From contig NZ_JAKENF010000004.1 of NCBI RefSeq assembly GCF_021491355.1, positions 248,001 to 312,000 on the forward strand: 64,000 bases of DNA. Direction: 5' to 3'. Below the pieces are notes generated by a model. The model ran no database searches. It had not been told where the DNA came from and saw nothing but the letters and a program-made list of their open reading frames with translations. A program made the position numbers and the translations under genes. Positions 41,872 to 49,064 of the stretch are shown here, one piece after another (position 1 is the stretch's first letter; every line of letters begins with the position of its first letter). Source of the stretch: Alitabrizicola rongguiensis (lineage in GTDB: Bacteria > Pseudomonadota > Alphaproteobacteria > Rhodobacterales > Rhodobacteraceae).

Positions 41872-42816
41872 ATGATTTCGCATAGGCGAATCAGACAGAT
41901 CGGCGAAATGCGAGTTTCCCTTGAAAGCCTTGCTGCCGATCTGGAGATCCACGAGATGCGCTCGCCGCTCGCGCCTGGTCTTCATGTTGCCTTCGGCCGC
42001 TGGAAGGGAGCGCTCGATCCGATATCGCGCCTTGCAACCGGCAAGGGCACGGACGCCGCCGCAGCCAGGCTGGGATGCCTTGGCGAAGCGGTCGAGAACC
42101 TTTCGATTGGCACCGTGGCGCATCCACTTCCTGTCTGGGCCGCGACAGCGGCCGGGCCCGTTGACGCGCGGGCCCGCAACCTGACCGATCCGGCGGATCT
42201 GGGGAGTGAAGGCTGCGCGGCGCATTCGGACGATACCCTCGCGCGCAAGAGTGCCGTGCTTGAACGGGTCGAGAGGGCCGCTTTAGCCCTATGGTGGCTT
42301 GGCAAGGCAGAAGCCTTTGAAATCGATATCGATCTCGAGACCATGACCCGCTATCGACAGGGCGAAACGCTTCGCTGGAGCCGATGCTGGCTGATCGAGG
42401 CGATACCAGGCATCGCCACTTGCCTCGTCATAACCGGCGATGCGGGAGGTGGGCCGATGGTTCTTGGGAGCGCTGCCGCCGACGGTGCCGTCGAGGCCAG
42501 CCAGGCCGCACTTGCCGAAGCGCTTCTGTCCGAGGTGGCCCTGCTCGCGCCGCCCGGCCATCCGGATCACCAGCGAGCGCTGGCAATGGACAGGGCGCTG
42601 GCCCGGCGCGTCGCAAGACCTGTCACGCTGACTGAGACGCACCCTGGCCAATCCCTTTCGGCGGATGACCTGATCCTGCTTTGCCACGAGGCCGGGCAGG
42701 ATATGAGCCTTGTCGAGCTGACTCATCCCGCACTTGGCCTCCCGGTCTGGCGTGCGGTTTCCTCCACCCTGCCCCGCTGGCGCCCGATCCTTCAAAGTCC
42801 TTTGACGTTTGAATGA
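41872..42816 (+). CDS. YcaO-like domain protein, short form
   Basis: A 314-residue protein whose motif order matches the YcaO ATP-dependent backbone-activating family. It has TGKGTDAAAARLGCLGEAVENL (57-77; compare GKGLT..A..SAL.EAIER), KSAVLERVERAALALWW (126-142; compare ..LLELIERDA..LWW), GAVEASQAALAEALLSE (205-221) and the C-terminal ALGLPVWRAV. YcaO enzymes make azolines, thioamides or amidines on peptides. Some expected ligand residues differ (N76 for R; no Q/R after E216), and it is shorter than usual. Start is 41872 or 41908. It leads a three-gene set with a peroxidase. Confidence 0.6.
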   Translation: MISHRRIRQIGEMRVSLESLAADLEIHEMRSPLAPGLHVAFGRWKGALDPISRLATGKGTDAAAARLGCLGEAVENLSIGTVAHPLPVWAATAAGPVDARARNLTDPADLGSEGCAAHSDDTLARKSAVLERVERAALALWWLGKAEAFEIDIDLETMTRYRQGETLRWSRCWLIEAIPGIATCLVITGDAGGGPMVLGSAAADGAVEASQAALAEALLSEVALLAPPGHPDHQRALAMDRALARRVARPVTLTETHPGQSLSADDLILLCHEAGQDMSLVELTHPALGLPVWRAVSSTLPRWRPILQSPLTFE

Positions 42817-42861: not shown

Positions 42862-44373
42862 ATGGCCCGCGACGATCAATCCACTGACCCGCTTGAGCCA
42901 CGCGGCCACGCGCGGGCGGTCCTTGAAGCGCGGGCCATTCGGGCAGCCACCCTGCCCCCGGACCGGCGCAACTATCTGTGCGACGCGGCGCAACCTGATC
43001 CATCACGGCTCTATGCCGGTGCAGGCTCGGTCGCCGAGACGTTGCGGCATTTGGAACCGGTGGCCGAGCACCTTGTCGACGATGCCTGGAAAGTCGATGC
43101 CCTGCCGGGCAGCATGCCCGCCGGCTACACCTTCCTGGCCCAGCTGGTCGCTCATGATGTGGCCGCACATACGTTCGGACCCGACGAGACCTACCGGCCG
43201 GACGATGCGCGCGGTCATGGGCTGACGCTTGATTCGATCTTCGGCCCGCTGTCAAGCGCGCGCGCCATGCCGAAGCTCTATCGCTTCCGACTTTCGGCCT
43301 CGGATCCTGGAAGGCCCGTCGCGGTCGACCTGACCTGGACCGGCAACACCGTAGACGCACATGATGCGCGAAACGGCGATACGCCGTTCCTGTCGCAGTT
43401 GTCTGCGCTGTTTGTCCGCTATTTCGATCTGGCGGCTTCCGCGCTGTCCGAGGAGTTTCCGGAGCAGCGGGCGCGGCTTCTCGCGCGCTGCCTGACAGCC
43501 GAGGTCTATCTCGACATCATCGAGCACGATCTTCTGGCGCGTCTGCTTCATCCGGCAGTGCTGGCGATGGTTCGGGCGAACGGCTGGCGCCTGGTCGATC
43601 TGGCAGCTGAACGCGAAGGATTCGCAATCCCCGTCGAGTTCACCAATGCCGCATTCCGCTTCGGCCATGCGATGGTACGATCGACCTACTGGCTGAACGA
43701 CCGCAGCCCGGTGATGCCGCTTGGTGACCTGATCGGCCCGGTTCCCCCCGGCCTGGAAGGTATCCGGGCCGGAAACTCGAACTTCTGGCGGGTGGATTGG
43801 CGACTGTTCTTCGGTGACGGGCCACAGTTGCAGATGGCCCGCCGCATCGGTCCGGACCTGCCGCCGGATCTGGAAAGGGTCGGCAAGAACCGCGCCATCC
43901 CAGGCGGGCGCAAGAGCGATCTCGCGCTACGCGACCTGGCCAGCAGCGCGACAGGCCGGTTGCAGAGCGTCGCGGCCCTGGCCGAGCTGCTGGCGCCGCA
44001 TCTTGCAAACCGGGCCGGATGCGCAGGATGGGTTCTGTGGTCTCAGGCAGGACGCCGAGCGGTGATGGCAGATTGGCTGTCGGCCCAGCCGGGCCAGGCG
44101 CCCGATCACCTGAAGCTCGATCCGCCGCTTAGTCTTTATCTGATGGTCGAGTCTGGCGCGAATGGTGTCGATCAGGGTCTTGGCGGCGGCCGTACGCTTG
44201 GCGCGCTTGGCTCGACTCTGGTGGCCGAAGTGCTGATGCCTCGCCTGCGCATGGCTCGCAACTTCATTGCGGCGCAGCCAGAGCTGAACAGGGCGCGGTC
44301 GATCTTCCCGCCTCCCGCGGGCAGGGCGCCAGAGATGTGGACGTTGATCGAATTCCTGACGGGTTTGGAGTGA
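42862..44373 (+). CDS. Animal-type heme peroxidase family protein
   Basis: A 503-residue member of the animal (myeloperoxidase-like) heme peroxidase superfamily. The distal site is FLAQLVAHD with H98 followed by Asp, and the proximal His is H269 in NAAFRFGHAMVRSTYWLND, both characteristic. R186 in LFVRYFDLAA may be the distal Arg. No signal peptide or RTX repeat is visible, so it appears cytoplasmic, unlike many bacterial members. It would oxidise halides, tyrosines or organic substrates with H2O2. It sits between the YcaO-like gene (45-base gap) and a Tyr-rich-tailed protein (14-base gap). Confidence 0.82.
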   Translation: MARDDQSTDPLEPRGHARAVLEARAIRAATLPPDRRNYLCDAAQPDPSRLYAGAGSVAETLRHLEPVAEHLVDDAWKVDALPGSMPAGYTFLAQLVAHDVAAHTFGPDETYRPDDARGHGLTLDSIFGPLSSARAMPKLYRFRLSASDPGRPVAVDLTWTGNTVDAHDARNGDTPFLSQLSALFVRYFDLAASALSEEFPEQRARLLARCLTAEVYLDIIEHDLLARLLHPAVLAMVRANGWRLVDLAAEREGFAIPVEFTNAAFRFGHAMVRSTYWLNDRSPVMPLGDLIGPVPPGLEGIRAGNSNFWRVDWRLFFGDGPQLQMARRIGPDLPPDLERVGKNRAIPGGRKSDLALRDLASSATGRLQSVAALAELLAPHLANRAGCAGWVLWSQAGRRAVMADWLSAQPGQAPDHLKLDPPLSLYLMVESGANGVDQGLGGGRTLGALGSTLVAEVLMPRLRMARNFIAAQPELNRARSIFPPPAGRAPEMWTLIEFLTGLE

Positions 44374-44387
44374 GGAGATAGCGAAGA

Positions 44388-44948
44388 ATGACAGAAGTTA
44401 TCATGACCGTCGCGCATCAGCGCCCAGTCGGCGCCTTCCTGACGGCGGTTGCGCATTTGCCGGAGGCGGATCGGCCCAAGACGGTCGAGGGCCTGATGAC
44501 TGCCTTTGCCGGATATCTGAACGCCTATTTCCTTGATCCGAACAAGCGGATCGACCCGAAGATGCCGGCGCCCATGCTGACACCGAAGGTCGCAGCGACC
44601 AAGGGTGAGGCGGCAGCTGCGTTCGTGCCGGCGACGCAAGGGGATACCAGTGCAGCGGCGATCGGAACCTGGATGGTCCATCCCTATATCGAGGTCGGCA
44701 ACATCCGGCGCGATGCGGCGATCGATCTTGTCCAGCACAAGCCCGAACGCGTCGCCATCCGCCTGCCTACAGCTGGATTGCTGGAGCAGGCCGAAAAGGA
44801 CGCCCGTCTGCTGTCCATCGCCGGCGATACCGACAAGTTCGTGGGCCCGAACTACTACTACGACTACTTCCGAAACTCGCCGGGGATGTCCACGATGGAG
44901 TACCTCTGGTCAAGGATCGCGGACTACACCACGTCGTCTTGCCGCTAG
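44388..44948 (+). CDS. 186-aa protein with Tyr-rich tail ending TTSSCR; candidate modification substrate
   Basis: No known domain is recognised. The first ~130 residues look globular and Ala-rich. The C-terminal tail is rich in aromatics (NYYYDYFRNSPGMSTMEYLW, then RIADY) and finishes TTSSCR, where C185 is the only cysteine of the protein. There is no signal peptide. It follows the peroxidase by 14 bases, in a three-gene set with the YcaO-like gene. A cyclisable Thr/Ser/Cys terminus next to a YcaO and many tyrosines next to a peroxidase suggest that this is the modified substrate; that is inference only. Confidence 0.7.
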   Translation: MTEVIMTVAHQRPVGAFLTAVAHLPEADRPKTVEGLMTAFAGYLNAYFLDPNKRIDPKMPAPMLTPKVAATKGEAAAAFVPATQGDTSAAAIGTWMVHPYIEVGNIRRDAAIDLVQHKPERVAIRLPTAGLLEQAEKDARLLSIAGDTDKFVGPNYYYDYFRNSPGMSTMEYLWSRIADYTTSSCR

Positions 44949-44989: not shown

Positions 44990-46960
44990 TCAGGCAATCC
45001 GGGCGATTGCGTCGATCACCCGGTTCAGGCCAGCCTCAGGACTAAGCGGCGTGGCAGAGGCAAACCATTGAAGTGCGTCCGGCTCGCTTTTTCCATGCCA
45101 TCGTCGGCGGAGATCGGACTTGAAACGGTCCCAGCAGCCTTTGGCGATATCAGGCTTTCCGGCAAGTTCCGCAGCAGCGGCCGCATAGCCATATCCGAAG
45201 ACGATGATGTTGTCTGACTTCTGCGCATAGCTGACGCAGCCATCGTAATCGCCGCTCAGCAGGGCGATGGAGACCCGATACCCCAAGGTCGCCCGGTTGA
45301 TGCCCGGATCGAGGACATTGACCGCCGCGGAAAGCCGGGCTGCACGCTCGGTCTGGCCCGAAAGCGCCAGAACTTCGGCTGTCGATGCAATCCGGCGCGG
45401 GCTGCTCTGACTGCCAAGTGCCGCTTCATCCGCCGCCTCGATCGCGCGCCCAAAGCGACCACTCTGCACGGACGACCAGGCCAGCGCCAGCCAGGCATCG
45501 GATCTCAAGATGTCGTCGCGTACGCATCCCTCGGCAATCTCGTAGGCCTCGGCGACGCCTTCTCGTGGGGCATAGAGGCCCGGAAACACGACGCTGCGAC
45601 TGTTCAGCAATTCGGCGAGCATGACACGCGCGCGCAGGCCAACCTCGCCCTTCGTGGTGACGCTGCGCATCAAAGCTTCGGCGCGGCGGTCGGAATCCGG
45701 AGACCAGTCGTTCATCAGCCAGCGGGCCCGAACCAGCTTGTCATAGTCCGGCAGATCGCCATCCCCGAGCGAATCCAGATTGGTGACGTAATGAGATTCG
45801 ACCTTGCCGATCAGATGCGAGGCAAGGCGCTGCACGGCAAGCTCGCTGTTGCGGATCCAGTCTCCGCGGTTCAGCGGCAGGGCAGTCGTCCAGATGATCC
45901 GGCCCGAACTCGTGTCTTTCAGCGTGAGGATCACCCGCATCTCTCCGATACCGGGCGAAAAGACCCCGCGTAGTTCAAAGTTACCGCGCATCGTGGGAAG
46001 CGGCGTGTCGTTGTCGGCCTCGATGACGATCCAGTCTCCCACCGTCAGCAGGGACGAGACGATTTCGGCCTGCATACCGTTCACGACGATCCGGTTGTCA
46101 TCGGACATCATGTCGCCGGCAATCGGGCGAAGATAGACGGTGATCCGATCCTGCGCCGGTGCAAGCGAAAGGAGAGGCTGGGGCGGGGGCGCCTGGACCG
46201 TCCCCTGCGACTTGATGCGAACCGCCAGCGCCTGCGTCGCCTCCGAAGGTTCGACGTCGAATTCCTCATCCAGAAGCGCCCAAAGCCGGTTGTAGTGTTC
46301 CAGGGCGGCCGCGCTGTTGCCGGCGGCAATATCGAGAAGCATCAAATGCCGGGTTGCCGTTTCATCATGCGGCACAAGCTCGCGAAGCTTTTCGGCGACA
46401 ACCCGGCTCGACTCGCTCTGGTTGGTTGGCTGAAGACGCGCACGAAGCGCATCGGCCATCGCAGCGATGAATGGGTCGCGCTGGCTCCGCAGGAAAGTCT
46501 CGAATTCTGGATCCAGCCCGAACAGGTCTGTAGCGAAACGCAGGTCCGCTTCGGCCAACGAAAGACTACGCAGCGGCCGCTCGTCCCCCTGATCCAGCGC
46601 GGACAGGGCGACTGCCACCTCGTTTGGCAAGCGGTCGAGAGTCCAGATCACGGTTTCCCGGTCCGAGACGATCGGGTCCATTCCGGGAACGGGGGGATTG
46701 TCGCGCAGGACATAAAGGATGTTGCGCAGTGAGCCGCGGCTGTTTTCCTCGTTCGCTCCAGACCAGAGAAGACTCGCCAGGCGCGACCGCGAAATGCGCG
46801 ACTGTCCGCTGAGGCAGAACCACGCGACGATCGCCTTCGCCTTCGTCGGTCGCAGCGGAACCACCTCGCCGTTCAGCAACAGCTCAAACGAGTCGAAGAC
46901 GCGAAAGCTAAGCGAGCTTCGCGGCGGCGAGGCATCAGGAGTGTTGGACCGATCGGTCAT
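44990..46960 (-). CDS. SARP-like (BTAD) regulator with TolB-like and TPR regions
   Basis: A 656-residue regulator. The N-terminal winged helix (FRVFDSFELLLNGEVVPLRPTKAKAIVAWF to RGSLRNILYVLRD) and the following BTAD helical domain (to EFDVEPSEATQALAVRI) match SARP/AfsR activators. A TolB/FlgO-like alpha-beta domain follows (ITVYLRPIAGDMM, GNFELRGVFSPGIGEMRVILTLKDTSSGRIIW), then TPR-like repeats to the C-terminus. Such regulators often act beside the genes they control; it faces the 186-aa gene 41 bases away and is divergent from a Crp/Fnr gene. The start at 46960 is chosen over 46990. Confidence 0.82.
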   Translation of the reverse strand: MTDRSNTPDASPPRSSLSFRVFDSFELLLNGEVVPLRPTKAKAIVAWFCLSGQSRISRSRLASLLWSGANEENSRGSLRNILYVLRDNPPVPGMDPIVSDRETVIWTLDRLPNEVAVALSALDQGDERPLRSLSLAEADLRFATDLFGLDPEFETFLRSQRDPFIAAMADALRARLQPTNQSESSRVVAEKLRELVPHDETATRHLMLLDIAAGNSAAALEHYNRLWALLDEEFDVEPSEATQALAVRIKSQGTVQAPPPQPLLSLAPAQDRITVYLRPIAGDMMSDDNRIVVNGMQAEIVSSLLTVGDWIVIEADNDTPLPTMRGNFELRGVFSPGIGEMRVILTLKDTSSGRIIWTTALPLNRGDWIRNSELAVQRLASHLIGKVESHYVTNLDSLGDGDLPDYDKLVRARWLMNDWSPDSDRRAEALMRSVTTKGEVGLRARVMLAELLNSRSVVFPGLYAPREGVAEAYEIAEGCVRDDILRSDAWLALAWSSVQSGRFGRAIEAADEAALGSQSSPRRIASTAEVLALSGQTERAARLSAAVNVLDPGINRATLGYRVSIALLSGDYDGCVSYAQKSDNIIVFGYGYAAAAAELAGKPDIAKGCWDRFKSDLRRRWHGKSEPDALQWFASATPLSPEAGLNRVIDAIARIA

Positions 46961-47096
46961 GTTCCAAGGATTAGGTCTTGATTGCCGCAACGTCTACCGC
47001 GACGCGGGGTGCGGCAAGAGGTTTCCAAGGAAAAGAGCAACTTGCGCTGCAACTTCCGAAAAGATTCGAGGTGAAATCCTAGTCATTTCGCGTGAG

Positions 47097-47130
47097 GGGC
47101 CTTTGCCTCAAGCGAGGCAGGACAAGGCCC
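47097..47130. other. Long hairpin in the divergent SARP/Crp promoter region
   Basis: GGGCCTT plus TGCCTC (47097-47109) pair with GAGGCA (47114-47119) and AAGGCCC (47124-47130), giving a 13-bp stem with a four-base bulge and an AAGC loop. It lies midway between the two divergent starts and could be an operator dyad or a structured leader of either gene. Confidence 0.6.
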
Positions 47131-47240
47131 GCAACCCCAGATTGTTCGCTTTCGAATCCTCATGGAACGGCCAAGCGGGAACGACCCTGTCGCCGGTATT
47201 GGCTGGAGAGGTTCGGGACGAACCGCTAAAGAGGGCGAAG

Positions 47241-47990
47241 ATGCAAGCTCGCGAAGGCCGGACTATGACGGGCACGCAGACAAAGACCCTGGCGACCCGG
47301 CCAGGTCATGCCTTCTGGCGATCGTTTCCGATGTTCGAGAACCTCGGAGACGAAACGCTTGCCGCCCTGTCGGAAGTGGCGGTCGCCCGCGAGTGGCCTG
47401 CCGGGGCGGTCCTGTTCCTGCGTGGCGAGCCGGGCGACTACCTGCTGGCGATCGCCGAAGGGCGAGTGAAGCTTTCCCTCGTGACGCCGGGCGGGCGAGA
47501 ACTCGCCCTCGCCATTGCCGAACCGGGCACCATCATCGGCGAGATGGTTCTGTTCGACGAAGACCCGCGATCGGCCGACGGAACCGCCCTGACCGCCACC
47601 TGCGGTTATGTGGTAGACCGTGCGGCCTTCCGTTCGGTCGCGGAACGCCATTCGGACCTGATGGAAGGTGTTGCGCGTTTCCTCTGCCGACGTTTGCGCG
47701 ACACCAACGACAAGCTGGAGTCGATTGCGCTCTACGGCCTGGACGCTCGCCTTGCCCGTTTCCTGCTGTTCACCCTGCGCCAGATTCACGGCGACGACCT
47801 GCCAGACAAGGCGCGGCTGCGGCTTGCGATCACCCAATCAGACCTGGCCGCGGTTCTTGGGGCAAGCCGACCGAAGGTGAACCGTGCACTCCAGGCGCTG
47901 ATCGAAGATCAGGCGATCCAGCGCGAGGGCGAGGTATTGATCTGCGATCCGGCACGGCTGCGTGAGTTGGCCGACCCGGACATCGAGTGA
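47241..47990 (+). CDS. Crp/Fnr-family transcriptional regulator
   Basis: A 249-residue regulator with a cyclic-nucleotide-binding fold (FLRGEPGDYLLAIAEGRVKLSLVTPGGRELALAIAEPGTIIGEMVLFD) and a C-terminal winged helix (ITQSDLAAVLGASRPKVNRALQAL). It lacks the N-terminal FNR cysteine cluster, so it is not an oxygen-sensing FNR. The GEMVLFD and SRPKVNR segments are of the general Crp type; the effector is unknown. Start at 47241 (GAGG site) or 47265 (GAAGG site). Confidence 0.9.
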   Translation: MQAREGRTMTGTQTKTLATRPGHAFWRSFPMFENLGDETLAALSEVAVAREWPAGAVLFLRGEPGDYLLAIAEGRVKLSLVTPGGRELALAIAEPGTIIGEMVLFDEDPRSADGTALTATCGYVVDRAAFRSVAERHSDLMEGVARFLCRRLRDTNDKLESIALYGLDARLARFLLFTLRQIHGDDLPDKARLRLAITQSDLAAVLGASRPKVNRALQALIEDQAIQREGEVLICDPARLRELADPDIE

Positions 47991-47996
47991 CGTCGG

Positions 47997-49064
47997 TCAG
48001 GGATGCCAGGTCCGGTCGAGCACGGCAAACCAGTTTTCGTAGCAGAGCTTGCGCATCAGCGGCTCGTCATAACCGTGGGCGCGCAAGGCGTCCTGCAATG
48101 CAGGTAGCCCAGTCACGTCACCGATCCCCTGCGGCACCGTCGCACCATCGAAATCGGACCCGAAGCCGACATGATCCTCGCCGAGATGGGCAATGAGGTG
48201 ATCGAGATGGCGAAGCACCGGGTCCCAATCCATTTCGGGGGACTGGCGACCATCAGGGCGCAGGAAGACCGTGGCAAAGTTCAGTCCGACCATCCCCTCG
48301 CTATCGCGGATCATGCCAAGCTGGCGGTCGGTCAGGTTGCGGGTGGTGGGCGTGATCGCATGGGCATTGGAGTGGGTCGCGACCAGGGGCGCGGTGCTGA
48401 GACGCGCGACGTCGTTGAAGCCAGCCTCGTTGAGATGCGACAGGTCGACCATGATGCCCAACTGGTTGCATGCACGAACCAGCGCCTTTCCGGCGTCGGT
48501 CAGACCCGGCCCGGTATCGGGTGTTCCGGGATACCGGAACGGCACGCCGTGACCAAAGGCGGTCGGGCGGCTCCAGACCGGTCCGAGCGACCGCAGACCC
48601 ATCGAATGATAAAGAGGCAGCGTATCCAGCGCCGGATCGATCGCCTCGGCGCCTTCCATATGCATGATCCCCGAGATCACACCATCGCTGAGTGCCGCGC
48701 GCAGCTCGGATGTCGTACGGCAAACCTTGAACCGCCCGCCCGAGGCCCGCTCCATCCAGAGTAGATGCCCGGCCTTCGACAGCGCAATGACCTGCGCGCG
48801 GTCAAGCGGGATAGGATCGGGCAGCGGGAGATCGTAGGGCGGGTTTTCCATCAGCGCGTCGCTGATGTCATAGTCCGCGCCCGATGGAGACGGGACGTAG
48901 ATGGCGAAGAAGCCGCCCGCGAAATGGCCCTTGCGCATCCGGGGCAAGTCGAGATGACCCGTCCCATCGCCCTCCAGCCACAAGATCTCGCGCCGTGACG
49001 GGTCCGACTGAAGACGTAGCAGGAAGTCGTTGTGACCATCGAAAATGGGCAAGGCCTTGTTCAT
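47997..49064 (-). CDS. Membrane dipeptidase (M19 family)
   Basis: A 355-residue di-zinc dipeptidase. Metal ligands appear as HND in FDGHNDFLLRL, Glu in GIMHMEGAEAI, His in VDLSHLNE and VATHSNAHAI, and Asp in GFGSDFDGATVP. Family members cleave dipeptides, including D-amino-acid-containing ones, and many bacterial homologues process peptidoglycan dipeptides. No signal peptide is seen, so it is probably cytoplasmic. It is convergent with the Crp/Fnr gene. Confidence 0.94.
   Translation of the reverse strand: MNKALPIFDGHNDFLLRLQSDPSRREILWLEGDGTGHLDLPRMRKGHFAGGFFAIYVPSPSGADYDISDALMENPPYDLPLPDPIPLDRAQVIALSKAGHLLWMERASGGRFKVCRTTSELRAALSDGVISGIMHMEGAEAIDPALDTLPLYHSMGLRSLGPVWSRPTAFGHGVPFRYPGTPDTGPGLTDAGKALVRACNQLGIMVDLSHLNEAGFNDVARLSTAPLVATHSNAHAITPTTRNLTDRQLGMIRDSEGMVGLNFATVFLRPDGRQSPEMDWDPVLRHLDHLIAHLGEDHVGFGSDFDGATVPQGIGDVTGLPALQDALRAHGYDEPLMRKLCYENWFAVLDRTWHP

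Follow-up and report, generated by a model that had tools for sequence, protein, structure and literature searches.

TOMM pathways normally have, beside their YcaO protein, a ThiF/E1-type partner, a protease, an exporter and a flavin dehydrogenase, the last being facultative; LynD, TruD and MusD are peptide cyclodehydratases. As far as the accessible text of the survey by Cox (2015; PMC4603692) goes, cyanobactin YcaO proteins were grouped with those of NHLP/Nif11 clusters. The available part of PMC11583998 describes nostatin A as a proteusin with a nitrile-hydratase-like leader and a cyclodehydratase, and that of PMC13083261 a RiPP thiazole made with a GMC oxidase, outside the usual enzyme set.

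The locus considered here lies in a 64,000-nt stretch of the Alitabrizicola rongguiensis genome, hereafter the window, where genes for a YcaO protein, a haem peroxidase and a small protein of 186 residues (P186) follow one another on the same strand, with intergenic gaps of 45 nt and then 14 nt. On balance we lean towards P186 being the substrate of a RiPP-like pathway, with an NHLP-like leader, a C185 cyclodehydrated by the YcaO protein, a tail oxidised by the peroxidase and an operon under the control of a BTAD regulator.

The gene module and its distribution

The features of the locus, in window coordinates, are the following:

41872..42816 (+): YcaO protein, 314 aa, the YcaO domain being its sole significant domain (Pfam PF02624, 8.6e-18)
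42862..44373 (+): homologue of animal-type haem peroxidases, 503 aa (PF03098, 5.1e-5)
44388..44948 (+): P186, Cys-tailed small protein, 186 aa, the proposed RiPP-like precursor with a leader-like body and a C-terminal tail
44748..44771 (+): R121-T128 of P186 (RVAIRLPT), aligned by hhalign with the NHLP segment lhivLP
44916..44945 (+): I177-R186 of P186 (IADYTTSSCR), conserved tail motif [VILF]-[GA]-x-[YIF]-x4-C-x and proposed core or modification site
44940-44942 (+): codon of C185, the conserved penultimate Cys, sole Cys in P186
44981-45005: perfect 10-nt inverted repeat with a 5-nt loop, between the convergent genes and extending into the end of the BTAD gene
44990..46990 (-): BTAD (SARP-like) transcriptional regulator, 666 aa, convergent with the operon (PF03704, 6.7e-11)

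The PF03098 score of the single window peroxidase, 22.5 bits, is below the Pfam cut-off of 25. The inverted repeat looks like a terminator shared by both convergent genes. No Pfam or NCBIfam family matched P186, and an AlphaFold model of it, from a two-sequence alignment, had a mean pLDDT of 36 and was set aside. Among 61 genomes around the window, a contig scan found P186 in only one besides the window's own, as a relative of 85% identity; this relative comes from a metagenome bin of Rhodobacter (L003), where the order of the four genes is identical. The ORFs at 46719-49064 of the window, which we take to encode a Crp-like regulator and a dipeptidase-like protein, adjoin the module and also follow it in L003.

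Modules of YcaO, peroxidase and small protein were found at 33 alphaproteobacterial loci, the window included, and at one more (L062) which shows YcaO and peroxidase only, because the contig ends there. In the family sample, 394 genomes were searched with the window peroxidase, 53 matched, and the loci of all 53 were examined; at least 15 of the 394 have the module, in addition to the edge case L062. An 18-row peroxidase profile (E 1e-10) matched 28 of the 385 genomes of the class and 33 of the 398 of the phylum, from which 40 stretches were examined, the weakest being left out. A five-row profile reached only 3 of the 385 genomes in the class-wide search and missed the more distant groups, and searching by pattern for a near-terminal Cys preceded by an aromatic residue returned only one group of small proteins (A, see below) and chance ORFs. 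Peroxidase, YcaO and BTAD genes stood together in 17 of the 59 loci of the first set (58 with a peroxidase match) and in 9 of the 40 of the second, counting L094, whose YcaO match is a short fragment of 27.6 bits, as well as L121 and L122, where BTAD scores were weak; the YcaO gene of L057 is truncated by a contig end. Plasmid matches, 13 of 26 examined, yielded six loci without YcaO and seven modules, of which that of QY30 is identical with L039; the six added are from Phaeobacter inhibens P78, Paroceanicella profunda, Mesorhizobium huakuii, Paracoccus sp. SMMA_5_TC, P. aminovorans and P. denitrificans. The five genomes examined from outside the Alphaproteobacteria (L097, L109, L110, L126, L128) had the peroxidase without YcaO, so that the modules found are all alphaproteobacterial. 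Two side observations concern the plasmids: near the module of Paracoccus denitrificans HAMBI_2443, a second match to the YcaO profile lies on the opposite strand (L170, 9746-10741 (-)), and a Spirosoma plasmid carries consecutive genes for a haem peroxidase, a YegP-family protein and a ThiF-family adenylyltransferase, without YcaO (L165, 5830-9229 (+)).

When 14 module loci were compared, peroxidase and YcaO were present in all 14 and BTAD in 13; these loci match the locus-scan profiles by construction, since the YcaO, peroxidase and BTAD profiles were built from them. Small proteins and apparent antisense shadows aside, the most widespread other family was a single distant gene, seen in 5 loci, and no protease or exporter family was common to the loci in this 14-locus count. 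The proximity of the BTAD gene, together with weak TPR matches in the regulator (E 0.18-0.39), would agree with a tail protein that the BTAD regulator reads, either as a peptide signal or as a redox sensor, and whose Cys is tuned by YcaO and peroxidase. We regard this as quite improbable: binding of the tail protein by the regulator is purely hypothetical, SARP-like regulators often do no more than control a biosynthetic operon, and the module of Paracoccus sp. SMMA_5_TC has no BTAD match within the 12.8 kb examined.

Both enzymes keep residues expected of active proteins of their kind. In 18 module YcaO proteins E131, E134 and R135 are invariant and E72, E75 and E216 are kept in at least 90%, the acidic ones being those known to bind ATP and Mg; against PDB, the module profile matched best LynD (4v1t, 3.7e-46) and TruD (4bs9, 4e-45), with MusD also among the best. 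Likewise Q94, H98, R266 and H269 are invariant in 18 module peroxidases and D99 is kept in at least 90%, these being the distal (Q94, H98, D99) and proximal (R266, H269) haem residues, and the module profile matches lactoperoxidase (8s6c, 2.3e-18) and also myeloperoxidase. The usual partners were not seen: in none of the 18 module genomes was a ThiF/E1-like gene (PF00899) near the module, the nearest on the same contig being about 1 Mb off (G234), nor was a flavin dehydrogenase of the nitroreductase family (PF00881) found within 15 kb of it, the nearest being at about 18 kb (G304).

The C-terminal tail and its Cys ending

The translation of P186 ends in ...YYYDYFRNSPGMSTMEYLWSRIADYTTSSCR, C185 being second from the end. 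The preliminary description had pointed to a Tyr-rich stretch (Y156-Y158, Y160, Y172, W174, Y180) closed by T181-R186, with C185 as the penultimate and sole Cys of the 186-aa protein, and all these residues are indeed located there. It had also asked whether homologues keep the terminal Cys and the Tyr spacing while the middle varies, and had suggested that the Tyr cluster was a natural target of a peroxidase and that Ser and Thr, like Cys, might be acted on by the YcaO protein.

The small proteins were sorted into five groups, with, before the plasmid additions, 13 members in A (window included), 6 in B, 2 in C, 4 in D and 2 in E. For the Cys the answer is positive: it is present in the tail of all 31 group A-D proteins (penultimate in 30, third from the end in one), and their bodies vary so much as to be barely recognisable. 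With the last Cys as anchor, all 31 tails carry the motif [VILF]-[GA]-x-[YIF]-x4-C: position -8 is Val in 14, Leu in 8, Ile in 7 and Phe in 2; position -7 (A178 in P186) is Gly in 18 and Ala in 13; position -5 (Y180) is Tyr in 25, Ile in 5 and Phe in 1. Positions -4 to -1 and +1 are variable, and one residue follows the Cys in 30 tails and two in one. Group A follows the pattern DY[TV]xxxC, and group B has Ile or Phe five residues before the Cys. Hence of the Tyr spacing only the residue at -5 stood the comparison; the Y156-Y160 block, W174 and the Ser/Thr run of P186 are unconserved among the A-D tails, the counterparts of the Tyr cluster in homologues reading YLDAY, FYYDY, FYSDF, FYKRL and others. 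The comparison thus did not uphold a conserved Tyr cluster as target of the peroxidase, nor Ser and Thr as conserved YcaO substrates: conservation is confined to the last ten residues. The group E proteins (L121, L122) terminate in Cys itself, as RCCAAC and RSCASC, i.e., with three and two tail Cys, respectively.

Between the window and L003, the last 33 codons of the P186 gene differ by 6 synonymous and 3 amino-acid changes, and the first 153 codons by 51 synonymous and 24 amino-acid changes. S184 is replaced by His in L003, indicating that the residue preceding the Cys is free.

In the first set, the small ORF ends in Cys-x in 17 of 17 modules (in L036 this is the end of the peroxidase ORF); in the nine modules of the second set, six end in Cys-x, L111 in Cys-Gly-Pro, and L121 and L122 in Cys. 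Homologues lacking the Cys and still encoded with both enzymes were sought and none was found: in each of the 33 modules where a small ORF is visible, a Cys lies within its final three residues, a count in which the locus scan picked small ORFs near the peroxidase by their Cys-x ending, so that those of groups B and C were partly recognised by it. In group C (L043, L059) the small ORF, identified by its ending, adjoins YcaO and is not 3' of the peroxidase. Because of this partial recognition, a purely positional count and the annotated plasmid genes serve as the unbiased tests.

The positional rule took the longest ORF of at least 90 aa on the same strand with its start -60 to +250 nt from the peroxidase stop. 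A Cys-x ending was found after 20 of 28 module peroxidases versus 2 of 70 others (Fisher p = 1.7e-12); the two positives are one contig taken twice, and the 70 include 17 with no following ORF as well as L037 and L058, one contig counted under both. The eight misses are L043, L059, L036 (fused), L111, L121 and L122 (where the NHLP-like ORF is divergent), the second L107 peroxidase, and L062, which at its contig edge has no visible small ORF and was scored as a miss; L094 was scored positive on a longer, overlapping ORF, and the small ORF of L094 also has a Cys-Ala ending. In the five newly added plasmid modules that are annotated, the CDS after the peroxidase, a hypothetical protein annotated by third parties, ends in Cys-x in 5 of 5; as these CDS were annotated by others, our tail search could not bias the choice. 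The unannotated Paracoccus denitrificans plasmid has a Cys-x ORF at the same place after the peroxidase.

It might be argued that Cys-x endings arise by chance or from the base composition of GC-rich loci, and indeed 43 of 1157 greedily chosen non-overlapping ORFs of at least 120 aa in the window and loci end so, a background raised by the spurious ORFs it includes. The positional count, the motif shared by 31 of 31 tails and the annotated CDS refute this explanation, to which we attach a negligible probability.

Substrate or subunit: bodies, fusion and peroxidase tree

The preliminary description had seen in P186 a folded, leader-like protein with a core at its end. The A-D proteins are about 126-246 aa long, with start codons chosen by us, and the four groups were unjoined by hhalign (probabilities not above 14.5%). 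No significant Pfam or NCBIfam family was found in 16 other small proteins; weak matches of L039 to EF-hand (E 0.006) and to an autotransporter domain (E 0.004) were set aside. Compared by hhalign with seven NHLP leaders, group E gave a probability of 86% (E 5e-6), group C 38% (E 3e-4), and group A 22% (E 0.001) with 13 sequences and 40% (E 3e-4) with 15. The NHLP segment matched by group A, which ends in LP (RVAIRLP in the window), is also the one matched by group C. Column permutations reached the observed NHLP score in none of 100 for each of groups A, C and E, and in none of the 58 scored for group A with 15 sequences; in the repeat set 58, 60 and 60 were scored of 60 each, and two of the 500 permuted scores (one A, one B) repeat a previous score. 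Reversed alignments scored against NHLP like permutations. No NHLP signal was found by hhalign for groups B and D. The NHLP model TIGR03793 matched L121 at 12.1 bits (E 0.13, positions 7-73 of 77) in the trimmed ORF only; it matched neither the longer L121 ORF (at E 1) nor L122 nor P186, and its cut-off of 50.9 bits was reached in none of 8 module genomes. A Gly-Gly cleavage site is absent from the P186 sequence, the only one inspected for it. A leader-like origin thus has some support, as far as remote similarity to NHLP leaders can tell, for groups A, C and E, from which this part of the earlier proposal gains; groups B and D gave it nothing. As a side observation, one alphaproteobacterial contig (L134, G430:C42) carries several NHLP leader genes in tandem.

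In L036 (6422-8413 (-)) the peroxidase and a group A tail protein are joined in one 663-aa ORF, the only fusion among the 31 A-D members. It may be a natural fusion of an enzyme with its substrate or with its subunit, and fits either equally. P186 might accordingly be a stable peroxidase subunit whose Cys acts in the holoenzyme, as a haem-pocket thiolate, in a redox relay or through a cofactor-like group installed by the YcaO protein, with no peptide released; a methanogen YcaO is known to modify the enzyme subunit McrA. In addition to the fusion, such a role would agree with the position of the small ORF close 3' of the peroxidase (in L034, L035, L077, L096 and L107 its possible starts overlap the peroxidase stop by 4 nt), with the tail conservation within groups, and with the lack of a protease or exporter family common to the loci. 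Against it, the same enzymes stand in L121 and L122 beside NHLP-like proteins with three and two tail Cys, groups A and C are themselves remotely NHLP-like, and the peroxidases of groups C and E sit among YcaO-less peroxidases in the tree described below. We hold the subunit role to be unlikely, and retain it as the main alternative because of the fusion and of the absent protease, exporter and E1 partner.

In a FastTree tree of 109 peroxidases (L058, L093 and L171 left out; support values uneven), most of group A and all of group D fall in one clade (0.984), with D inside. Groups B, C and E stand apart, C and E among peroxidases that have no YcaO in the locus, and L111, L164 and the edge case L062 lie outside the main A clade. 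From this tree, the arrangement arose several times or was often lost. The genome of module L048 also contains a B-like peroxidase paralogue (L092, 7468-8751 (-)) with no YcaO or BTAD match and no Cys-tailed neighbour.

Returning to P186 as a pathway substrate, the data show the gene module, the tail motif, the kept catalytic residues of both enzymes, the one fusion and the NHLP-like precursors in the same setting. The action of the enzymes on the tail, the type of reaction, a possible release of the tail, the target of the regulator and the role of the product are inferred. Judging from sequence, the tail is probably the spot chemically remodelled by YcaO and peroxidase. The body of P186 would be a leader remotely related to NHLP leaders, and the modified region would be the C-terminal tail I-A-D-Y-T-T-S-S-C-R. 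The LynD/TruD-like YcaO protein would most likely form a thiazoline by cyclodehydration between C185 and the backbone carbonyl before it, which would explain why the preceding residue is free, only the Cys and its place being of importance. The haem peroxidase would then oxidise the tail, most likely taking over from the usual flavin dehydrogenase the conversion of the thiazoline into a thiazole, or might alternatively target the nearby Tyr, where present, and the BTAD regulator would control the operon.

Several points weigh against the tail protein as a substrate. TOMM pathways normally have partners, and here neither ThiF nor the flavin dehydrogenase was found near the module in the 18 genomes, nor a protease or exporter family shared by the 14 loci; the NHLP similarity is remote, groups B and D being without signal; the tail is conserved within groups, unlike the hypervariable cores of many RiPPs; and the L036 fusion suits a subunit as well. 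More tentatively still, and with our confidence short of even, the module could represent a new RiPP class in which a lactoperoxidase-like haem peroxidase and a partnerless YcaO protein jointly remodel a single near-terminal Cys in [VILF]-[GA]-x-[YIF]-x4-C-x, with several hardly related kinds of leader, peroxidases of at least three lineages of one tree, and one self-modifying peroxidase-substrate chain.

Comparison with known systems

In borosins the core is fused to an alpha-N-methyltransferase; L036 resembles them in having enzyme and supposed core in one chain, and differs in that its enzyme is a peroxidase. McrA, a large enzyme subunit, is thioamidated by YcaO-TfuA, and a YcaO protein changing a large subunit is a likeness that suits the subunit role of P186; the 14 loci, however, share no further family that could be TfuA. 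In pearlins and 3-thiaglutamate scaffolds, a small molecule is assembled on the C-terminal end of a carrier protein that bears a terminal Cys. The module shares with them the C-terminal Cys of a carrier-like protein, and differs in that the Cys is encoded, one residue comes after it, and no further enzyme family is shared by the 14 loci.

In the open-access literature searched, a scope that most subscription papers and preprints fall outside, we found no description of this module, and nothing linking a haem peroxidase of the lactoperoxidase/myeloperoxidase family to YcaO or to a RiPP pathway; nor is the module described in the available parts of PMC4603692, PMC10783134, PMC8776678, PMC11583998, PMC7794033 and PMC13083261. 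If the tail is the substrate, the module would be an oxidative YcaO pathway and thus a modified-peptide route of an undescribed kind, concealed by long precursors that go unrecognised in Pfam and NCBIfam. The tail motif is simple enough to serve as a search query, and the presence of the module in culturable organisms (Paracoccus denitrificans, Phaeobacter inhibens) makes the proposal directly testable.

A close likeness is with TOMM or linear azol(in)e peptides having NHLP-type leaders (PMC4603692, accessible text): the module shares with them a LynD/TruD-like YcaO protein and a precursor with a leader and a C-terminal Cys, and the proteins of L121 and L122 look NHLP-like. Of the TOMM features, the module has a YcaO protein with ATP/Mg residues and a precursor with a C-terminal Cys, Ser/Thr being unconserved; in the 18 genomes it has neither an E1-like/ocin-ThiF partner nor the facultative flavin dehydrogenase. 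Its precursor body is long, the tail Cys is usually single, and P186 has no Gly-Gly. In place of a nearby ThiF-type partner or flavin dehydrogenase stands an animal-type haem peroxidase, and the word peroxidase does not occur in the main text of that survey, as far as accessible. Proteusins such as nostatin A (PMC11583998, available part) have a long core rich in Cys, Ser and Thr, whereas the module has essentially one Cys in a fixed motif. The GMC-oxidase RiPP (PMC13083261, available part) has no YcaO protein, a lanthipeptide-type precursor and a flavin enzyme, where the module has a haem peroxidase.
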